Source: an uncultured Saprospiraceae bacterium | GTDB taxonomy: Bacteria; Bacteroidota; Bacteroidia; Chitinophagales; Saprospiraceae | Assembly (NCBI GenBank): GCA_938022935.1 | Contig: CALIHL010000133.1 | Span: 1 to 54,493 of the forward strand | Direction of reading: 5' to 3' | Length of the DNA: 54,493 nt | Part shown: positions 2,169-52,496 of the stretch, piece by piece | Position numbering within the stretch: position 1 is the first letter of the stretch | Layout: each line of letters begins with the position of its first letter | Notes under the pieces: model-generated | Databases searched by the model: none | What the model saw: only the letters and a program-made list of their open reading frames with translations | What the model was told of the DNA's origin: nothing | Program-made: the position numbers and the translations under genes

Positions 2169-2346
2169 GACATCTGATTGTATGATACAGTTGGTATGTG
2201 TTGTGCAAATATTGAGCCACATCACAGATGTATGATCTATCATTCATATCGCAAAGTGTTGATAATGAATGATTAATACCCTAACGGGCATCCCATGATC
2301 TCGGAGCAATACTTATATTAGCTCGCTAACAAGAAAATAATCGATT

Positions 2347-3285
2347 ATGATAAATAGGCTGTATAGAATGACTCTTTTGCTTAGTTTTCTTTTGCTTATC
2401 TCTTATGTAGATGCTCAAAATACCAAAGAGCTCGAAGGAAGATGGGACTTAACCATAGAAAAAGATGGTAAATCCCTTCCATCTTGGTTAGAAATCAAGC
2501 ACTCGGGTATAAATACACTGGTAGGCAGATTTGTCTACACCATGGGCAGTGCAAGACCAATCAGTGTCGTTAAGGTAGATGATCAGGGTAACTTTAGATT
2601 TGCGATACCACCGCAGTGGGAAGGAGGAGCAGAGGATATGATATTTACAGGTAAGTTAGATGATGCTCAGCTCTCTGGGTCGATGATTTATACAGATGGC
2701 TCAGTCAGTTCTTGGACTGGCAAGCGAGCGCCTGTGCTTCCGCATAATGATAGTCCAAAGTGGGGCAAGCCGATTGAAGTATTTAACGGTAAAGACCTAA
2801 CGGGCTGGCATGTCACAGGAGAGAACCAATGGATAGTAAAAGATGGTATCCTAACCAGCCCAAAATCAGGTTCTAATCTTTTAACCAATCAAAAGTTCTT
2901 TGACTTCAAACTGGTAGCAGAGTTCCGATATCCAGAAAATGGAAATAGCGGTATCTACCTCAGAGGTCGATATGAAGTACAGATCGAAGATGGTAAAGGC
3001 AAGGAACCTTCTGATATATATTTTGGTGGGATCTACGGCTTCTTAACACCCAATGAGATGGCAGCAGGAGATCCTGGTACTTGGCAACGATATGAGATTA
3101 CCTTGATCGGAAGTCGTGTCACCATCGTAGCGAATGGAAAAGCGATCATCACAGATCAATCGATACCTGGTATAACAGGCGGAGCTTTAGATAGTGATGA
3201 AGGTGCACCGGGCTCAATGTTTATCCAAGGCGATCATGGTCCTGTAGAGTTTAGGAAGTTTGTGGTTACGCCTGTTGTGGAGTAG
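2347..3285 (+). CDS. Exported DUF1080 (3-keto-disaccharide hydrolase-like) protein
   Basis: A 312-aa exported protein with a signal peptide to about residue 23 (LLISYVDAQ). Residues ~25-130 form a beta-rich module seen before DUF1080 domains in Bacteroidota. The DUF1080 domain follows from ~140: the FNGKDLTGWHV opening motif, a WIVKDGIL strand, a FDFKLVAEFRYPENGNSGIYLR core and the VQIEDGKG segment. This concanavalin-like fold includes 3-keto-glycoside hydrolases and is abundant in Planctomycetes and Bacteroidota that degrade glycans. The next genes, a PSD1/DUF1501 pair and a GntP permease, suggest a sugar-use neighbourhood. Specific substrate unknown. Confidence 0.85.
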   Translation: MINRLYRMTLLLSFLLLISYVDAQNTKELEGRWDLTIEKDGKSLPSWLEIKHSGINTLVGRFVYTMGSARPISVVKVDDQGNFRFAIPPQWEGGAEDMIFTGKLDDAQLSGSMIYTDGSVSSWTGKRAPVLPHNDSPKWGKPIEVFNGKDLTGWHVTGENQWIVKDGILTSPKSGSNLLTNQKFFDFKLVAEFRYPENGNSGIYLRGRYEVQIEDGKGKEPSDIYFGGIYGFLTPNEMAAGDPGTWQRYEITLIGSRVTIVANGKAIITDQSIPGITGGALDSDEGAPGSMFIQGDHGPVEFRKFVVTPVVE

Positions 3286-3373
3286 GACTTTTATAACTTT
3301 CTAATTAATACGTTGTAAGAGGTTTCTAATCTCGCACAGTTATTTTAATTATTGATGTCTTGATAACTGGGCG

Positions 3374-3490
3374 ATGTCGGAGATATCTTGCGCCGATGGA
3401 TTTTATCTTACAAAATGGGAGCTCAACGATTATAGAATAGGTCCCTACACTGATCTACTCAATAACTTCACTTATCAAAGAGTATCATAA
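3374..3490 (+). other. Small 38-codon ORF, probably gene debris
   Basis: ATG at 3374 to TAA at 3488 encodes a 38-residue aromatic-rich peptide ending in FTYQRVS. It has no signal peptide and no family I recognise. It lies in the 586-bp stretch between the DUF1080 gene and the DUF1501 gene, just upstream of a clear gene remnant. It may be the tail of a lost gene or chance. Confidence 0.2.
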
Positions 3491-3535
3491 TTAGATGATG
3501 ATTGTTGGATCATTGATGTTCACAAAACTCATCTA

Positions 3536-3790
3536 ATGAAAAGATTATTACTGATCATCATAGCAATGGCTGCGCTCATCACATAAACTATAGCACAAGG
3601 AGATACCGGCTTTTTAAGAGAAGGCAAGTGGTTAATTGAAATAGGGACGGGTACATTTGGGTTACAAGGTAATCCCACTGGTTCTTCATTTCTTTTCCCA
3701 GAAGATGGTAGTAGTCTTGGTGTAATCTCGCAGGAAGGAGGGAAGTTTATCTCAGAAAACTTTGCATGGACTGGTAAGCTGATTCTATAA
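3536..3790 (+). pseudogene. Remnant of an exported protein gene (signal peptide plus short N-terminus)
   Basis: An ATG at 3536 opens a textbook signal peptide (MKRLLLIIIAMAALIT), but an in-frame TAA at 3584 cuts it. The same frame then continues as IAQGDTGFLREGKWLIEIGTG... to a TAA at 3788. That stretch looks like the first ~65 mature residues of a Bacteroidota outer-membrane beta-barrel protein (the AQGDTGFLREGKWLIE start is typical). With its stop codon and missing barrel it is best read as a truncated pseudogene. A terminator follows directly. Confidence 0.6.
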
Positions 3791-10702: not shown

Positions 10703-10745
10703 TTTCGTCCTTCTTTTATAAAGAGAAGGAGAAGAGGGTGAGTTT
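10703..10745. repeat. REP-like intergenic repeat, copy E
   Basis: CCTTCTTTT (10709-10717) pairs with AAGAGAAGG (10721-10729) allowing one G-T pair, followed by agaagagggtgagttt. Confidence 0.5.
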
Positions 10746-10776
10746 AGAATTAATTATGTAATCATGGACCACCAAC

Positions 10777-10832
10777 AAAAAGCGCCCCTCCATATCAGAA
10801 GCGATAGCTTCTGATATGGAGGGGCGCTTTTT
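10777..10832 (-). terminator. Very strong tkt terminator: perfect 26-bp inverted repeat
   Basis: Left arm 10777-10802 and right arm 10807-10832 are exact reverse complements with a 4-nt loop (gata). The arms start and end with A/T runs, so the hairpin ends in a T-run on both strands. It lies 53 bp downstream of the tkt stop and probably ends tkt transcription on the minus strand. A perfect 26-bp stem is unusually long for a terminator. Confidence 0.85.
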
Positions 10833-10884
10833 TCACTTCCGGGAAACAGACTAACATCAAGTCTCCGTCAAGTAGAGATACTCT

Positions 10885-12921
10885 CTACTTTCCTCTAAAC
10901 AACTTCTCTACCTGCTTCACCACTGACTCTGCAGTATAGCCAAATTTTTTATCCAGTACTGTATAAGGAGCACTATAACCGAAGTGCGTCATACCTTGCA
11001 CAGTACCATTGCCTTTCACCAATCCTTCCAGTGTTACTGGTAGTCCTGCCGTAAGCCCAAAAGTTGGTATACCGTTAGGTAGTAGATTGGCTTGATATGC
11101 TCTTCGTTGTGATCTGAACAATCCTTCGGATGGTGCAGATACGATTCTTACTTTAAGACCTTTTGCTTCAAGGAGAACAGCAGCATCAACAAGAGTTGAA
11201 ACTTCTGATCCATTGGCTACAAGTACTACATCTGGAGTCTTCGTCCCTTCTTGTATCAAGTAAGCTCCACGCTCTGCAAACATCGCCTGTGAGATACGTG
11301 ACTTCTTGCCAGCAGGAACATCTTTGATATTCTGACGTGATAAGATGAGACCTGTTGGTCGATCATTCATCTCAAGAGCTATCTTCCATGCTGCAACGGT
11401 CTCCGCACTATCCGCTGGGCGTAAAGCAATTAGAGATGCTTTACCTGAGTGATTGTTAAGTTTTTCTAACAATCGCAATTGGGCTTCTTGTTCTATCGGC
11501 TGGTGGGTAGGTCCATCTTCGCCCACTCTAAATGCATCGTGTGTCCATAAAAACTTCACTGGAGTCTCCATCAATGCTGCTACTCTCAACACGGGCTTCA
11601 TGTAATCAGAGAATGCAAAGAAGGTCGCACATACTGAGATGACGCCACCATGAAGTGCCATGCCTGTTGACAATGCCGCCATCGTAAGTTCTGAAACGCC
11701 TGCTTGTAAAAACGCTCCAGAGAAATCTCCTTTTGTAAATGCTGTTGTCTTCTTCAAGAAGCCATCAGTCTTATCACTATTAGAAAGATCCGCAGAAGCA
11801 ACGATCATGTTTTCTACTTTGTCAGCAAAGTGAGCCAACACTTTTGAAGAAGCATTTCTGGTAGCTTCATTGGAGCCCAACTTGATCTTGTCCCATTTGA
11901 TAGCGGGTAGCTTTCCTGATAAGAATCTGTTTAGCTTTCTATTGAGGGCAGGATTCTTCTTCTTCCAAGTTTGATATTTCGCCTTTTGTTTTTTAGCAGC
12001 TTTACGTTTACGGTCAAGTGCCTTAGCATAGTGTTTTTCAACTCTTGGGAATATCTCAAATGGCTTAGCAGCATTCCCGCCTAAAGCTTCGATTGTTTTT
12101 TCAAAAGACGCATTGGATTTACCGAGCGGCTTACCGTGTGTTTCTACTTGACCTTCATGCATAGAGCCATCGCTTTTGACAGCACCTTTGCCCATGATCG
12201 TTTGACCGATGATGAGTGATGGCTTATCTGTTACTGACTTTGCTTCGTCTATTGCTCTTCTGATCTCTTTTGGATCGTTACCATCTATTGTGATCACATG
12301 CCAGTGCCAAGCTTCGTATTTCTTAGCTGTGTTTTCTGACATAACGTCGCTTACTCTTGTTGAGAGCTGGACATCATTGGCATCATAAAACATGATCATC
12401 TTACCAAGCCCTAAGAACCCTGCTATACGACCGACACCTTGAGAGATCTCTTCTTGGATACCTCCATCTGAGATATACAAGTAAGTATAGTGACTCATCC
12501 AGTCACCAAATCTTTCTACCAGAAAGCGCTCAGCGATTGCTGCTCCAGCACCAAAGGCATGACCCAGACCAAGTGGTCCAGAAGTATTCTCTATACCTCG
12601 TTTAACATCTATCTCTGGGTGACCAGGTGTTGGACTCTTCCACTGTCTAAAGTTCTTTAGATCATTTAACGAAAGTGCTCCACACAAAGTCAACTGGCTA
12701 TAAAGCATAGCTGACATGTGTCCTGGATCAAGAAAAAATCTATCTCGGAATGGCCAAGCCATATCATCTGGATCAAAATTGAGATATTCAGAATATAGAA
12801 TATTGATAAAGTCCGCTCCACCCATCGGACCTCCAGGGTGACCTGAAGAGGCTTTCTCAACCATAGCGGCAGAAAGGATACGGATATTGTCGGCACATAT
12901 TGTAGCAATAGGTTTAGCCAT
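10885..12921 (-). CDS. tkt: Transketolase
   Basis: A 678-aa protein, the normal transketolase length. It moves two-carbon ketol units between sugar phosphates in the pentose phosphate and Calvin-type carbon rearrangements, using thiamine diphosphate. Visible marks: SGHPGGPMGGADF with the N-terminal catalytic His (residues ~27-39), GHMSAMLYS, GPLGLGHAFGAGAA, the thiamine-diphosphate/Mg loop SDGGIQEEISQG...YDAND (~152-182), the pyrimidine-domain WTHDAFRVGEDGPTHQPIEQ segment, and a C-terminal regulatory domain. The loop has SDG rather than the commonest GDG. A TAnnTTTG box lies 30 bp upstream and a long terminator follows, so it is probably its own transcript. Confidence 0.96.
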   Translation of the reverse strand: MAKPIATICADNIRILSAAMVEKASSGHPGGPMGGADFINILYSEYLNFDPDDMAWPFRDRFFLDPGHMSAMLYSQLTLCGALSLNDLKNFRQWKSPTPGHPEIDVKRGIENTSGPLGLGHAFGAGAAIAERFLVERFGDWMSHYTYLYISDGGIQEEISQGVGRIAGFLGLGKMIMFYDANDVQLSTRVSDVMSENTAKKYEAWHWHVITIDGNDPKEIRRAIDEAKSVTDKPSLIIGQTIMGKGAVKSDGSMHEGQVETHGKPLGKSNASFEKTIEALGGNAAKPFEIFPRVEKHYAKALDRKRKAAKKQKAKYQTWKKKNPALNRKLNRFLSGKLPAIKWDKIKLGSNEATRNASSKVLAHFADKVENMIVASADLSNSDKTDGFLKKTTAFTKGDFSGAFLQAGVSELTMAALSTGMALHGGVISVCATFFAFSDYMKPVLRVAALMETPVKFLWTHDAFRVGEDGPTHQPIEQEAQLRLLEKLNNHSGKASLIALRPADSAETVAAWKIALEMNDRPTGLILSRQNIKDVPAGKKSRISQAMFAERGAYLIQEGTKTPDVVLVANGSEVSTLVDAAVLLEAKGLKVRIVSAPSEGLFRSQRRAYQANLLPNGIPTFGLTAGLPVTLEGLVKGNGTVQGMTHFGYSAPYTVLDKKFGYTAESVVKQVEKLFRGK

Positions 12922-47814: not shown

Positions 47815-49926
47815 GTGCCAGTATCACATAATCCACTGAAGCAAAAGATAGAGTTCGTCAAAGGAGTTGGCGAGGCGAGAGCGCTGTTGCTTAAGAAGGA
47901 ACTAGGTGTTGGCTCGATAGAAGACCTAATCAACATATTTCCTTTTAGATATGATGATCGATCAGTCTTCGTACTGCTCAAGGATGTGAGAGGTGGAGAT
48001 AGTGTTCAGATCAAAGGCACGCTGATCTCGCTCAACAAGGTGAAAGGAAGAGGACGAACCAGACTCACTGGTATGTTCAAGGACCCTTCGGGATTGATCG
48101 AGTTGACTTGGTTTCAAGGAGCCAAGTGGATCGCTGATACCTTAAAGCTGAATCATGAGTACATACTCTTTGGCAAAGTCAATGTGTATAGAGGAAAACG
48201 AACGATCCCTCATCCAGAAATGGAGCTCGCTTCCAAGGCAGAAAAACAAAGTGCGTTCTTACCTGTCTATGCTTCTACAGAAGCACTCACTAAGAAGAAT
48301 GTTGGGATGCGGACAAGGCGTAACATCGTGCAGAATATCTTCAATATCCTGAGACCCGAGCACTTTCCAGAAGTGCTTCCTGCTAAGGTGATGGATAAAC
48401 TTAAACTTTGTACTCCTTATCAAGCTTATCGATGGATACACTTCCCACAAAATGAAACAGAAAGATCTCACGCTGCTAATAGATTGAAATTTGAAGAACT
48501 TTTCTTTTTACAATTACGGATACTTCAAGTAAAGAAGCAGCGAGAGCAAAAACTAAAAGGTATCGTTTTCTCTCAAGTTGGAAACTACTTTAATCGCTTT
48601 TATAAAGAGAAGCTTCCTTTTGAATTGACAGGTGCTCAGAAAAGAGTGGTTAAAGAGATTAGAGCTGACATGGGTAGCAATATCCAGATGAATAGATTGT
48701 TACAAGGAGACGTGGGTAGCGGTAAGACAATAGTGGCGTTGATGTCTATGTTGATCGCTTTAGACAATGGCTATCAAGCTTGCTTGCTGGCACCTACAGA
48801 GATATTGGCTCAACAACACTTTCAGTCTATAACTGAGAGCTTGAAGGGACTGGGTTTGCATATTGCATTTTTATCAGGATCGGTAAAAGGCAAAACTCGA
48901 AAAGAACTCTTTCGGTTTTTAAAAGATGGTCATATCCATATTCTAATTGGTACGCATGCTATCTTGGAAGACCCTGTACAGTTCAAAAAGCTGGGCTTAG
49001 CGGTTACTGATGAGCAACATAGATTTGGTGTGGCACAAAGAGCCAAGTTGTGGCTAAAGAACAAAGATGTTCCTCCACACATATTAGTGATGACAGCCAC
49101 TCCGATACCAAGAACATTAGCCATGACAACTTATGGCGACCTTGATGTCTCGGTGATTGATGAGTTACCACCTGGACGTAAGCCGGTTAAGACACTTCAT
49201 AAGACAGAGGCAGATAGGATGAGGATCATCAAGTTTATGAAGGAAGAGATAGCTGCAGGACATCAGATCTATATTGTCTATCCTCTCATCGAAGAGTCCG
49301 CTACGCTTGATTTGGAAAACCTACAGCAGGGATATGAAGAGTTGCTTAATTATTTCCCGTTAGAGGACTATAAGATAGCTGTGGTTCATGGACGTATGAA
49401 AGCTGCTGATAAAGATATGGAGATGCAACGCTTTGCTGCTGGTCGAGCTCAGATAATGGTAGCCACTACCGTTATCGAAGTAGGTGTCAATGTACCCAAT
49501 GCGTCCATCATGATCATCGAGAATGCAGCTCGTTTTGGCCTATCTCAGTTGCACCAGCTAAGGGGTAGAGTAGGGCGTGGCGCTGAGCAATCATATTGCA
49601 TCCTGATGACGAAGAGTACTGGACTGACTCATTACGCCAGAGAGCGTATCAAGACGATGTGTAGGACGAATAATGGCTTTGAGATAGCAGAGGTTGACAT
49701 GAAGTTAAGGGGGCCTGGGGATCTGGAAGGAACCCAGCAAAGTGGTGTGCTAGAGCTGAAGATTGCTAATATCGCCAGCGATGCCAAGATCATGCAAACA
49801 GCTCGACATTTCGCCCTAGAGATCTTGTCTGAAGATGCAGATCTTGATTCGCCAGAATATATTAAAACAAAGGCCCACTTAGATAAGATTAAGCATCGAA
49901 GTCAGAGCTGGGGTAGGATCTCTTAG
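47815..49926 (+). CDS. recG: ATP-dependent DNA helicase RecG
   Basis: A 703-aa protein with a GTG start at 47815. It has an N-terminal wedge/OB domain (KGRGRTRLTGMFKDPSGLIELTWFQG), then helicase motifs: Walker A LLQGDVGSGKTIVALM, APTEILAQQH, IGTHAILED, Walker B VTDEQHRFGVAQR, VMTATPIPRTLAMTTYGDLDVSVIDELPPGRK, VATTVIEVGVNVPNAS and QLHQLRGRVGRG. It rescues stalled replication forks and processes branched DNA. Length is normal. Confidence 0.97.
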   Translation: MPVSHNPLKQKIEFVKGVGEARALLLKKELGVGSIEDLINIFPFRYDDRSVFVLLKDVRGGDSVQIKGTLISLNKVKGRGRTRLTGMFKDPSGLIELTWFQGAKWIADTLKLNHEYILFGKVNVYRGKRTIPHPEMELASKAEKQSAFLPVYASTEALTKKNVGMRTRRNIVQNIFNILRPEHFPEVLPAKVMDKLKLCTPYQAYRWIHFPQNETERSHAANRLKFEELFFLQLRILQVKKQREQKLKGIVFSQVGNYFNRFYKEKLPFELTGAQKRVVKEIRADMGSNIQMNRLLQGDVGSGKTIVALMSMLIALDNGYQACLLAPTEILAQQHFQSITESLKGLGLHIAFLSGSVKGKTRKELFRFLKDGHIHILIGTHAILEDPVQFKKLGLAVTDEQHRFGVAQRAKLWLKNKDVPPHILVMTATPIPRTLAMTTYGDLDVSVIDELPPGRKPVKTLHKTEADRMRIIKFMKEEIAAGHQIYIVYPLIEESATLDLENLQQGYEELLNYFPLEDYKIAVVHGRMKAADKDMEMQRFAAGRAQIMVATTVIEVGVNVPNASIMIIENAARFGLSQLHQLRGRVGRGAEQSYCILMTKSTGLTHYARERIKTMCRTNNGFEIAEVDMKLRGPGDLEGTQQSGVLELKIANIASDAKIMQTARHFALEILSEDADLDSPEYIKTKAHLDKIKHRSQSWGRIS

Positions 49927-49997: not shown

Positions 49998-50047
49998 TTA
50001 TTACTCGCTTTAAGTGGTGTTGTGTATATAGATAAAGCGAGTAATAG
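49998..50047. repeat. Left flanking ~50-bp repeat with 13-bp inverted arms (cassette end)
   Basis: ATTACTCGCTTTA (50000-50012) and TAAAGCGAGTAAT (50033-50045) are exact reverse complements. The same sequence recurs 900 bp downstream in the same orientation. The right arm ends 4 bp before the ATG of the ATPase remnant. Confidence 0.8.
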
Positions 50048-50049
50048 AC

Positions 50050-50891
50050 ATGGTCGGTCGTATTGATGAAGTAGCAAAGTTGCGCTCTATAGTAGCAGAA
50101 GAGGCTTCTTCTATGGTAGCTGTCATAGGTCGAAGGAGAGTAGGGAAGACCTATTTGATTGAGACTGTATATCGAGACAACATGGCCTTCAACCTGATAG
50201 GACAGCAGCATGCGGATCGTGATCTACAGCTTCAGAACTTTGCAGATTAGTTAGGGCAGTATACCAAGTCTAATCAATCATTAAAGGCACCGGCTAATTG
50301 GAAAGAAGCTTTTGACTTACTGAGATCATACTTAAAAAGAAAAAGGACCAAGAAGCGCAAGGTGATATTCTTTGACGAGCTACCTTGGTTGGATACTCAT
50401 AGATCAGGCTTGCTATCACACTTGGCTTACTTCTGGAATGACTGGGCTATAAAGAACAACATAGTTGTAGTGATCTGTGGATCTGCGGCTTCATGGATGA
50501 TAGATAAAGTCATCAACAATACGGCGGCTTGCACAATCGACTCAATCACTTGATTCAACTATAGCCCTTTACCCTAACTGTGGTCTTGTATACTGAAGAA
50601 AGTGGATACCGGCACCAAGGAGATAGTACCTATGATGGTATGCAAGTAGATTTAGTTATAGATAGGCCAGATAGCGCCATACATCTCTGTGAGATGAAGT
50701 ACTATGCAGACGAGGTAGTCATCAATAAGAAGTATGCACAACATTTGCGACAGCGGCAGGCCTCCTTTAAGTACTTTACTAATACGCGTAAGTATCTATT
50801 TACAACGTTGGTGACAACCTTTGGACTTAAGTCAGGTAAGAGTACTATCGGCTTGATAGACCATGTGATTACTATGGATCAGCTATTCTAG
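50050..50891 (+). pseudogene. Decayed AAA+ ATPase with C-terminal PD-(D/E)xK-like nuclease domain
   Basis: The remnant starts MVGRIDEVAKLRSIV with Walker A GRRRVGKTYL, as in the Arch_ATPase/DUF234-type ATPases common in Bacteroidota. A stop at 50248 breaks it; the same frame resumes with the Walker B region RKVIFFDELPWLDTHRSG and VVVICGSAASWMIDKVINN. A frameshift near 50521 moves the expected GGLHNRLNHLIQL to another frame, a stop follows at 50562, and the whole middle section (after PFTL) is deleted. The end is intact: GMQVDLVIDRPDSAIHLCEMKYY (D...E-x-K, nuclease-like) to VITMDQLF and a TAG at 50889. Confidence 0.85.
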
Positions 50892-50897
50892 ACGAGC

Positions 50898-50947
50898 ATA
50901 TTACTCGCTTTAAGTGGTATACAGCATATAAATAAAGCGACTATTAG
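50898..50947. repeat. Right flanking ~50-bp repeat (cassette end)
   Basis: ATTACTCGCTTTAAGTGGT (50900-50918) repeats the left flank exactly; the distal arm TAAAGCGACTATTAG (50933-50947) has drifted by three bases from the left copy's TAAAGCGAGTAATAG. It begins about 8 bp after the remnant's stop codon. Confidence 0.8.
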
Positions 50948-51026
50948 CACACATTACACAAGTAGGTTGTCTTATTTTGGCAGCACAATGACTATGAACA
51001 CGTTATATAAGATATACTAATTTTCT

Positions 51027-52496
51027 ATGAAGCTTCACTACGTAAGGAATGCTCTGTTCCTCATTATTTACTTGTTTTTATATAGTTGCGAAGAGCCTAT
51101 ATCCGACGATGTGGTCGTCATACAAGAAGATGTCGTATATCTATCATCAGAGCAACTTGTCTTAACTGGCCGCATAGTCAGCCAGACTCAGATCGATGCT
51201 TCAGATCATGGGTTCTTGGTGGCTGACAATGAAGCGTTAAGCAACCCAATTACTATTAGCCTAGGAGAACAAGGTGTGCCTGGAAGATTTGTTGGATCCT
51301 ATGATCAGCTCACTCCCGATACTAGATATTGGGCTGTAGCCTATGCCCTTACCGGAAATGGTGAGATTCGATCTGAGCCAAAACTCTTTACTTCATTAAA
51401 GCCGGCAATAACAGACTTCTCTCCAGCTGTAGCAGCTATCGGAGAAGAGTTAAAAATAATCGGGGCTAACTTTACGAACGACACTAAGGTATTCTTTGAA
51501 GATAAAGAAGCCGAAATAGTTAAGATCGTTGCAGAGTCGATCATAACAGTCTTGATCCCATCTAATAGTGGCAACGCTTTCAAAAACATCTCAGTGACTT
51601 CTCAGGGCGTTTCAAACACCTTTGATCGTCCATTTGAATATGTCGCAGGTAAATGGGAATCCTTAGGAGCTTTTCCTTTAACGGATGGTGTGATAGCCAC
51701 TTCGATTATGATGGAGAGTGAAAATTTTGCATTCTTTGGATTAGGTGATCGCTTGTTTGATATGAACCTTAATTCTGATGTGTTCTTATTGGATAAATCA
51801 TCAGAACAATGGAGTCAAGTGCCCTTTGAAGGAAGAAGCTTGGTAGGCGGTTTTGCTGCTTGGCCCTTCTTTGGTTCTGGGGCTGTTGATAGAGAAGGAA
51901 GAAACGTATCAGCAACAGAATTTTATAAATTGGAAAATGGCGTAATTGAAAAAGAAGGCGATTTGCCATTTGCTCTTTATAAGAGTTTTGCATTCGTTTT
52001 TGGAGAGTCATTGTTCGTGTTCGGAGGAAGGGTGCAAAGTGGTGCAACCAACTCTAAAGTTTTAGAGTATAACCAAAGGACAAAAACTTGGTCTATTATA
52101 GAAGATCAGCTTCTTATAGGTTCCTCAGACAATATCTCTTTTGTTTATAATGAAAAAGGATACTACGTAGGAGATGATAATGTCATCTTGCAGTTTGATC
52201 CTGTCACTAAGTCATGGTCACAAGCCTCAGATTATCCTGGTGGTGTAGGAAAAGAAGGATTTGCACAGGTGATTGGAGATGTAGCGTATATAGGTTTGTT
52301 CAAGTCAAGAAAATCTACAGTAGAATTAGATCTGCAAAATTTCACGAGTAAAAGAAAGAGTATTTTCAGGGGAGACTTTAAAGCATCTAACATACTTTCA
52401 TGGACAGATGGTGGAAATGTATATGTGCTTCGATCCAATGCCTTTAATGGCAACGACCCTATGAAAATTTGGAAACTAACACCTGATCAATTTTAA
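51027..52496 (+). CDS. Surface lipoprotein with IPT/TIG domain and Kelch-like propeller
   Basis: A 489-aa lipoprotein (signal ending LFLYSC, Cys21; then EEPISDD). After a fibronectin-like module (~30-125) there is an IPT/TIG domain (SPAVAAIGEELKIIGANFTNDTKVFFEDKEAEIVK, ~133-205). The remainder has Kelch-like beta-propeller repeats (SFAFVFGESLFVFGGRVQSGATNSKVLEYNQRTKTWSII; VILQFDPVTKSWSQASDYPGG). It lies 2 bp before a TonB receptor gene, so it is probably that receptor's surface partner for capturing a glycan or protein ligand. Confidence 0.8.
   Translation: MKLHYVRNALFLIIYLFLYSCEEPISDDVVVIQEDVVYLSSEQLVLTGRIVSQTQIDASDHGFLVADNEALSNPITISLGEQGVPGRFVGSYDQLTPDTRYWAVAYALTGNGEIRSEPKLFTSLKPAITDFSPAVAAIGEELKIIGANFTNDTKVFFEDKEAEIVKIVAESIITVLIPSNSGNAFKNISVTSQGVSNTFDRPFEYVAGKWESLGAFPLTDGVIATSIMMESENFAFFGLGDRLFDMNLNSDVFLLDKSSEQWSQVPFEGRSLVGGFAAWPFFGSGAVDREGRNVSATEFYKLENGVIEKEGDLPFALYKSFAFVFGESLFVFGGRVQSGATNSKVLEYNQRTKTWSIIEDQLLIGSSDNISFVYNEKGYYVGDDNVILQFDPVTKSWSQASDYPGGVGKEGFAQVIGDVAYIGLFKSRKSTVELDLQNFTSKRKSIFRGDFKASNILSWTDGGNVYVLRSNAFNGNDPMKIWKLTPDQF

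Follow-up and report, generated by a model that had tools for sequence, protein, structure and literature searches.

Palindromic repeats beside a decayed ATPase-nuclease gene are probably units of an array that the gene's own product is predicted to bind

Several described systems resemble in part the one considered here. PDC-S27 is a single-gene phage-defence candidate of PADLOC, and an intact homologue of the gene under study, encoded in the same genome (the C197 protein, the numbering of which is used for residues throughout), matches the PADLOC PDC-S27 model PDLC04984 over nearly the whole profile (residues 2-475 against profile positions 3-473 of 474, E 1e-196); PADLOC, however, defines the protein only. 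The PADLOC listing makes an anti-phage role a candidate function. Neither an array nor a repeat is mentioned in the part of PMC12988326 on PDC-S27 that is covered here, and the titles and abstract openings listed for the family or its repeats give no description of the arrays. The archaeal ATPases PABY2304 (2qen) and SSO1545 (2fna), of Pfam ATPase_2, differ from the family in that their matched ranges stop near residue 326, short of its C-terminal domain. To our knowledge, neither archaeal ATPase has a private array. Orc1/Cdc6 initiators, which act on origin recognition boxes, recognize inverted repeats that are commonly adjacent to the gene encoding them, and share the ATPase and winged helix with the family (structural matches 2qby and 2v1u), whereas the family described here has a fused nuclease-like domain and repeats that are largely gene-specific, and none of the features considered suggests a link to replication. 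In Tn7-like elements the ATPase TnsC and the PD-(D/E)xK nuclease TnsA act together, and TnsC has weak profile and fold similarity to the ATPase of the family; here, in contrast, there is one fused gene, no common terminal sequence and no apparent target duplication of constant length. Finally, the controller proteins of restriction-modification systems read a palindromic operator at their own promoter; the present protein differs in being an ATPase-nuclease, its array has several phased units, and copies of the array persist behind or without the gene.

The window is the whole stretch of DNA that was analyzed, 54,493 nucleotides of a contig from an uncultured Saprospiraceae bacterium. The features that concern us all lie on its forward strand.

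47815..49926, + strand: upstream neighbor, 703 amino acids, the product of which we take by eye to be RecG-like; left flank of the orthologous site, homologous in genomes G001-G005.
49999..50047, + strand: repeat copy 1, immediately 5' of the start codon and probably a single palindromic unit of an array belonging to the gene; its reverse half-site is 50000-50013 and its forward half-site 50032-50045, 32 bp start to start; registered in the family geometry rm32 with a score of 24.4 and 13 of 14 letters agreeing.
50050..50526, + strand: decayed 5' remnant of the ATPase_2 gene, covering profile residues 2-161 and interrupted by an in-frame TAG (50248-50250).
50580..50891, + strand: 3' part of the gene, an open frame of 103 amino acids with the C-terminal PD-(D/E)xK-like piece, profile residues 374-475.
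50899..50947, + strand: repeat copy 2, behind the stop, in the same orientation as copy 1, its right arm decayed; half-sites 50900-50913 and 50932-50945; geometry rm32, score 17.1, 11 of 14 letters agreeing.
51027..52496, + strand: downstream neighbor, 489 amino acids; right flank of the orthologous site, homologous in G001 and G005.

A preliminary description of this DNA had reported a repeat of about 50 bp with inverted arms, present twice in the same orientation 900 bp apart, 4 bp before the start codon and about 8 bp after the stop of an ATPase remnant. This agrees with what we find: the two copies are 49 bp long, 900 bp apart and 84% identical, the arms of copy 1 are 14 bp long, perfect and separated by 20 nt, its second arm ends at 50045 with the ATG at 50050, and the stop codon ends at 50891 with the arm of copy 2 beginning at 50900. 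The frameshift and internal deletion were also correctly seen, the ATPase and C-terminal pieces lying in different frames with profile residues ~162-373 absent between them; of the two stops that had been claimed, one is confirmed, the in-frame TAG, and the ATPase frame also meets a stop past the deletion point. The remnant matches PF01637 (ATPase_2) at 48.3 bits (cut-off 33.2). In 59 intact relatives the Walker ATPase residues G29, R30, R31, R32, G34, K35, T36, D111 and E112 and the nuclease residues D396, E410 and K412 are invariant, and the last three bear out the D...ExK nuclease-like end that had been proposed. Judged from its sequence, the window gene is a dead copy of a single-gene ATPase/winged-helix/PD-(D/E)xK family. 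In a check for a ToxN-like toxin the protein was ATPase_2/PDC-S27 over its length, the C-terminal domain having been considered as part of the whole. The AlphaFold model (mean pLDDT 93.4) places residue 281 directly before helix 283-294 of the winged helix, and the closest solved folds include the archaeal ATPases 2qen and 2fna and the DNA-binding Orc1/Cdc6, in matches that reach residue ~350 and leave the C-terminal domain outside. The family is patchily distributed, with members in 21 of 395 genomes of the phylum, the window's own genome included, and in one of 79 genomes of another family, namely the centre genome itself.

The assembly (4.06 Mb, 83.9% complete) contains the 12-mer TTACTCGCTTTA of the arm four times, and all four occurrences are inside the window, three of them within the two repeats and the fourth at the left end of the window; with up to two mismatches the window holds seven matches where 1.56 are expected, and none of 100 shuffles reaches seven. 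A genome-wide MITE or REP was dropped as a candidate because the arm is not dispersed in the assembly.

Repeats of the same kind are found beside relatives of the gene. Each of four intact homologues has a palindromic repeat 5' of its start codon, the sequence being different in each. A palindromic array of one geometry lies within 170 bp 5' of the start in 167 of 206 full-length genes, compared with none of 320 control windows, when registered with a matrix that was trained on 138 of the 206 genes, with a score threshold of 9 and at least 11 of 14 letters agreeing between the half-sites of a pair; the other 39 genes have no array in the register used. Among genes outside the training set an array was present in 33 of 43 (first held-out genes) and 20 of 25 (fresh set). 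Inverted repeats scoring at least 10 within 120 bp upstream were counted for 138 full-length genes from many genomes, of which 136 had enough upstream sequence, and occur at 105 of these 136 as against 11 of 236 other open reading frames of the same loci. The arms upstream of the genes recur nearby as further units. According to their sequences, then, the repeats belong to the gene family and not to the window locus. The preliminary description had named intact ATPase genes with such repeats as a sign in its favor, and these are seen; its expectation that the very same repeats would stand at other genes fails, since they differ from gene to gene. Eight plasmid or phage copies were examined and five of them are without an array (L353, L356, L357, L358 and L360). 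A copy from Butyrivibrio has an array and a residue 281 that falls in none of the classes described below.

The repeats could instead be ordinary terminators, or a dispersed REP- or MITE-like repeat that came to lie on both sides of the gene by chance, and they are indeed palindromic, short, intergenic and present in two copies. This explanation is scarcely credible, however, given the contrast between the relatives and the control windows and the covariation of the repeat sequence with the protein.

Behind the gene the repeat is much rarer. Of 81 genes, 16 have the arm again downstream of the stop (0.8 expected with the arms of other loci), and a matching half-site lies within 300 bp behind the stop in 20 of 165 (2.2 expected). 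The preliminary description had the gene exactly bounded by its repeats, which is true of the window gene but, with a downstream half-site in only those 20 genes, of a minority in the family.

The half-site has a consensus of about WTTYNGCNRNNWAT, in which a common backbone carries a largely gene-specific barcode; positions 4, 5 and 8-11 vary between genes. Of 114 pairs of same-orientation half-sites no more than 70 bp apart, 92 have a distance of 52-54 bp, which is the step from unit to unit. When no geometry was imposed, 124 of 181 genes were registered, with spacings of 31-32 bp in 63, 20-22 bp in 27 and 27-28 bp in 19; the 31-32 bp spacing is that of the half-sites inside a palindrome, 20-22 bp is the step between palindromes, and the 27-28 bp group is reasoned to be the 31-32 bp group read in the wrong orientation. 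With the spacing limited to 30-33 and 20-22 bp and the barcode positions masked, 93 of 114 genes have the 31-32 bp spacing, a proportion that is partly built in by the limit. Spacings of 31-32, 20-22 and 52-54 bp amount to roughly three, two and five helical turns, which would put the half-sites on one side of the DNA. The barcodes appear to be largely, not strictly, private to each gene: identity at the six variable positions is found in 2 of 350 pairs from the same genome and in 74 of 10,381 pairs from different genomes. Orthogonality of barcodes inside a genome is weakly supported by the within-genome pairs below 0.6 identity, of which 37 of 342 have two or fewer barcode differences where 54.6 are expected. 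Whole-arm similarity follows whole-protein identity only weakly, with a Spearman coefficient of 0.106, which none of 200 permutations reaches.

One protein column stands out from all others tested in its relation to the barcode. Residue 281 covaries with base 5 of the half-site with a z of 30.4 (null maximum 7.0) when the barcode-masked matrix is used; at its first detection the z was 15.9 (null maximum 7.4). Ser, Thr or Ala goes with G in 73 of 74 genes, Asn with A in 34 of 38, and Asp or Glu, the weakest class, with C in 33 of 44, making 140 of 156 genes with the training genes included. These counts come from 163 genes in which both half-sites agree at base 5, four of 167 having been dropped for disagreement; seven of the 163 carry other residues at position 281 and are outside the 156. 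Among the first held-out genes the code was correct in 18 of 19 after repair of the registration, a count that omits the orthologues of one genus, the 12 registered members of which all have Thr with G. Two earlier registrations, one by the matrix only (correct for 18 of 26 first held-out genes, a set in which ten were orthologues in a single genus) and one with two geometries (12 of 17 held-out genes), are superseded. Because the registration was repaired after the held-out genes were known, a fresh set of genes was scored with rule and matrix frozen, and the code was correct in 19 of 20, a result that none of 20,000 shuffles reaches and for which a guess of G throughout would score 13. Five of the 25 fresh genes had no array, one of them having almost no upstream sequence. 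The Emticicia copy (Asp with C) and the Wolbachia phage copy (Glu with C) also fit the code. The window copy lacks residues ~162-373 and with them position 281.

Shared ancestry does not explain the code, since the changes in protein and DNA coincide on the tree. When residues 258-320 are left out of the tree, 23 of 34 changes of residue class share a branch with a change of base, and 20 of these go the way that the code predicts. Under a single grouping of residues for all columns, the value is 0.58 for column 281 and at most 0.32 for the 223 other columns that have at least 25 changes. Because base 5 tracks a residue that the structural model puts beside the recognition helix, it is very probable that the intact protein reads, and binds, its own array. 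The repeat and the gene would in that case form a unit, the repeat serving as an address for the protein that the gene encodes. For a large family of candidate phage-defence proteins this supplies a partner open to testing, the predicted target DNA, together with the residue that tracks one of its bases; what is annotated as an ATP-binding protein becomes a family with a concrete assay, and the residue 281 rule could predict part of the site in further members.

The position of the arrays suggests what such binding may be for. The motif TAnnTTTG, presumably a -7 box of the Bacteroidota type, is present in 101 of 147 upstream regions, compared with 17.1 in mononucleotide shuffles, an excess to which half-sites that themselves include TTTG contribute; its commonest start is 3 bp before the forward half-site. 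The arrays often overlap predicted promoters, which makes control of the gene's own promoter the simplest function. In our best reading, the covariation at residue 281 and the overlap with promoters point first to an operator-like binding array. Each of the two repeats is likely, in our view, to be a unit of a palindromic array that belongs to the gene; the intact protein is predicted to bind this array and would use it to control its own gene.

It is very improbable that the repeats act instead as RNA hairpins, either as an attenuator or, on the pattern of type III toxin-antitoxin loci, as an RNA antitoxin 5' of a gene that is toxic. Tandem palindromic units with complementary arms directly 5' of a nuclease gene are what such a locus would have. 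However, the residue that base 5 follows lies next to a DNA-recognition helix, the spacing of the units fits five helical turns of DNA, and units are also found behind the stop; moreover, promoter-like boxes often overlap or follow the half-sites, which would leave many units outside the gene's transcript.

In the operator-like reading the winged helix would read the half-site, and dimers or longer assemblies would cover the promoter from one side of the double helix. The bound protein would limit its own synthesis until a signal arrives, perhaps phage infection, as is supposed for such candidate defence proteins, and the signal would release or activate the nuclease. Array and gene might spread between genomes as one unit, downstream copies of the array might arise through duplication, and recombination between array copies could remove the gene, with a single repeat staying behind. 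A role as operator alone accounts neither for the copies behind the stop nor for the fact that solo arrays survive.

Among the 17 closest protein pairs (at least 70% identity), three share full flanks and are positional orthologues. In six the array region upstream is the only common flank (L037/L038 and L020/L027, both 86%; L022/L146, 82%; L096/L145, 77%; L021/L102, 72%; L101/L111, 71%), and in the remaining eight no common flank is detectable by blastn; L020 entered this comparison without a downstream flank and L054 almost without an upstream one. The site orthologous to that of the window holds one decayed repeat and no gene in the congener G001 and neither in the congener G005. The solo repeat of G001 is recognizable letter by letter and registers at 7.3, the threshold being 9. 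At the site of another homologue G001 has kept the array, the gene being absent and other genes adjoining, and G002 has, by eye, a related repeat with a gene remnant elsewhere. In the Wolbachia phage WO record MN180249, the gene and a two-unit array are flanked by a head-tail preconnector (minor capsid) gene and the structural gene that comes next. The region is matched by 16 WO records; among six gene-free ones that were compared, a palindrome of this type is retained at the corresponding position in five and is absent from the sixth. In the two longer records in which it was counted, the WO palindrome is confined to this site, occurring once in KX522565 (first 50,000 bases) and twice in MN180249. 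Empty sites with a single repeat, which the preliminary description had named as a sign of a mobile cassette, are thus present at two sites in G001 and in five WO records. The sequences indicate that filled and empty orthologous sites exist, and these would fit an element that comes and goes, and equally the loss of a gene between direct repeats. Solo arrays may be fossils that trace the former places of the gene, including one in a phage. No clean empty sites were found for the genes of G023, where synteny is broken, and none was found at the L002 locus.

Solo arrays were also sought by a palindrome pattern search of 60 genomes, the matches of which include chance ones. Of ten palindrome places inspected, three are apparently true solo arrays without an adjacent gene remnant (L331-L333), L338 has a gene remnant, L337 is cut by the end of the contig, and five are weak or probably due to chance. 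The matches listed for these genomes include eight tandem pairs 51-54 bp apart, six of which adjoin a family gene or remnant and two of which do not.

It is conceivable, though unlikely, that the gene is a self-moving element, in which the ATPase-nuclease binds the arrays as ends or integration sites and moves the repeat and gene, with or without the second repeat, so that solo repeats are empty or vacated sites. The pairs in which the array region is the sole common flank would suit such an element, as would the solo repeats in G001 and the WO records, the absence of both repeat and gene from G005, and the weak similarity of the ATPase to the transposon ATPase TnsC. Direct repeats flank 22 of 123 genes and 5 of 127 control intervals; they are partly the arrays and partly longer outer duplications, the latter being present in a minority of loci and 73 to 300 bp in length (73 bp in L080, 300 bp in L010). 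In G817 a two-gene unit is present twice (98.5% identity over 3,297 bp), and the homology begins ~85 bp before the array on one side. On the other side, however, it runs on as a mosaic, the copies being inside a larger mosaic duplication. They consequently do not define the ends of an element, and since the homology does not end at the arrays on both sides they leave the odds of self-driven mobility unchanged. Several further features speak against such movement. In the other multi-copy genomes compared, no copies are near-identical, the highest within-genome identity being 0.66 among 350 pairs. The arms differ between copies, even inside one genome, and no constant terminal sequence was found; barcodes that differ provide no common end sequence. 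No target duplication of constant length is apparent, 145 of 165 genes have no downstream copy, and solo repeats are equally expected from deletion between direct repeats or from decay of the gene. The mobile cassette of the preliminary description thus stands in part: repeat and gene belong together and relatives recur without common flanks, but a downstream copy is the exception and near-identical copies were seen once.

A tentative combination of the two functions would be a hitherto undescribed class of one-gene mobile element, whose fused ATPase/winged-helix/nuclease reads a private, barcode-like array by means of a simple residue-to-base code; the array would double as operator and as the element's site of recombination or landing, and solo arrays would be left on departure. 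We regard it as doubtful. If it were true, genomes would accumulate many copies of such an element, most with different addresses.

The operator-like array remains the reading that we prefer, and a number of individual loci have features of their own. At L010:2595-4890 a sequence of ~300 bp is directly repeated (91% identity) outside both arrays, giving the order flank, array, gene, array, flank. At L070, ~150-1150 bp before the gene, the order is array, second ATPase remnant, a toxin-antitoxin pair that looks by eye to be of RelE/YoeB type, array, intact gene and array. At L001 the end of the minus-strand ATPase gene 2192-3631 and the repeat downstream of it have a duplicate at ~10-190, ~2.1 kb downstream of the gene, on the far side of a gene resembling, by eye, a metalloprotease. 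In G023, repeats of ~300 and ~220 bp (L131:2342-2655 and 10704-10999) adjoin the family gene and have many dispersed copies among the matches listed; in its congener G641, the matches listed include short inverted pairs of the stretch neighboring the L131 repeats. Genus g110 is represented by 14 genomes with one family match each (L188-L190, L192-L201 and L204), in which all 13 full-length members have Thr281 and all 12 registered arrays have G at base 5, as if the gene had been vertically kept and perhaps domesticated.

A different ATPase family, DUF4143 (PF13635), represented by genes of relatives (L245-L274), also has a strong palindrome near the start in 10 of 28 cases (score at least 12, spacers of 1-20 nt) in an uncontrolled scan that allowed wider spacers than that of the main family. 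Eight of the ten palindromes are within 16 nt of the start, examples being found at L251, L255, L268 and L272, and these genes may represent a second system of the same logic.
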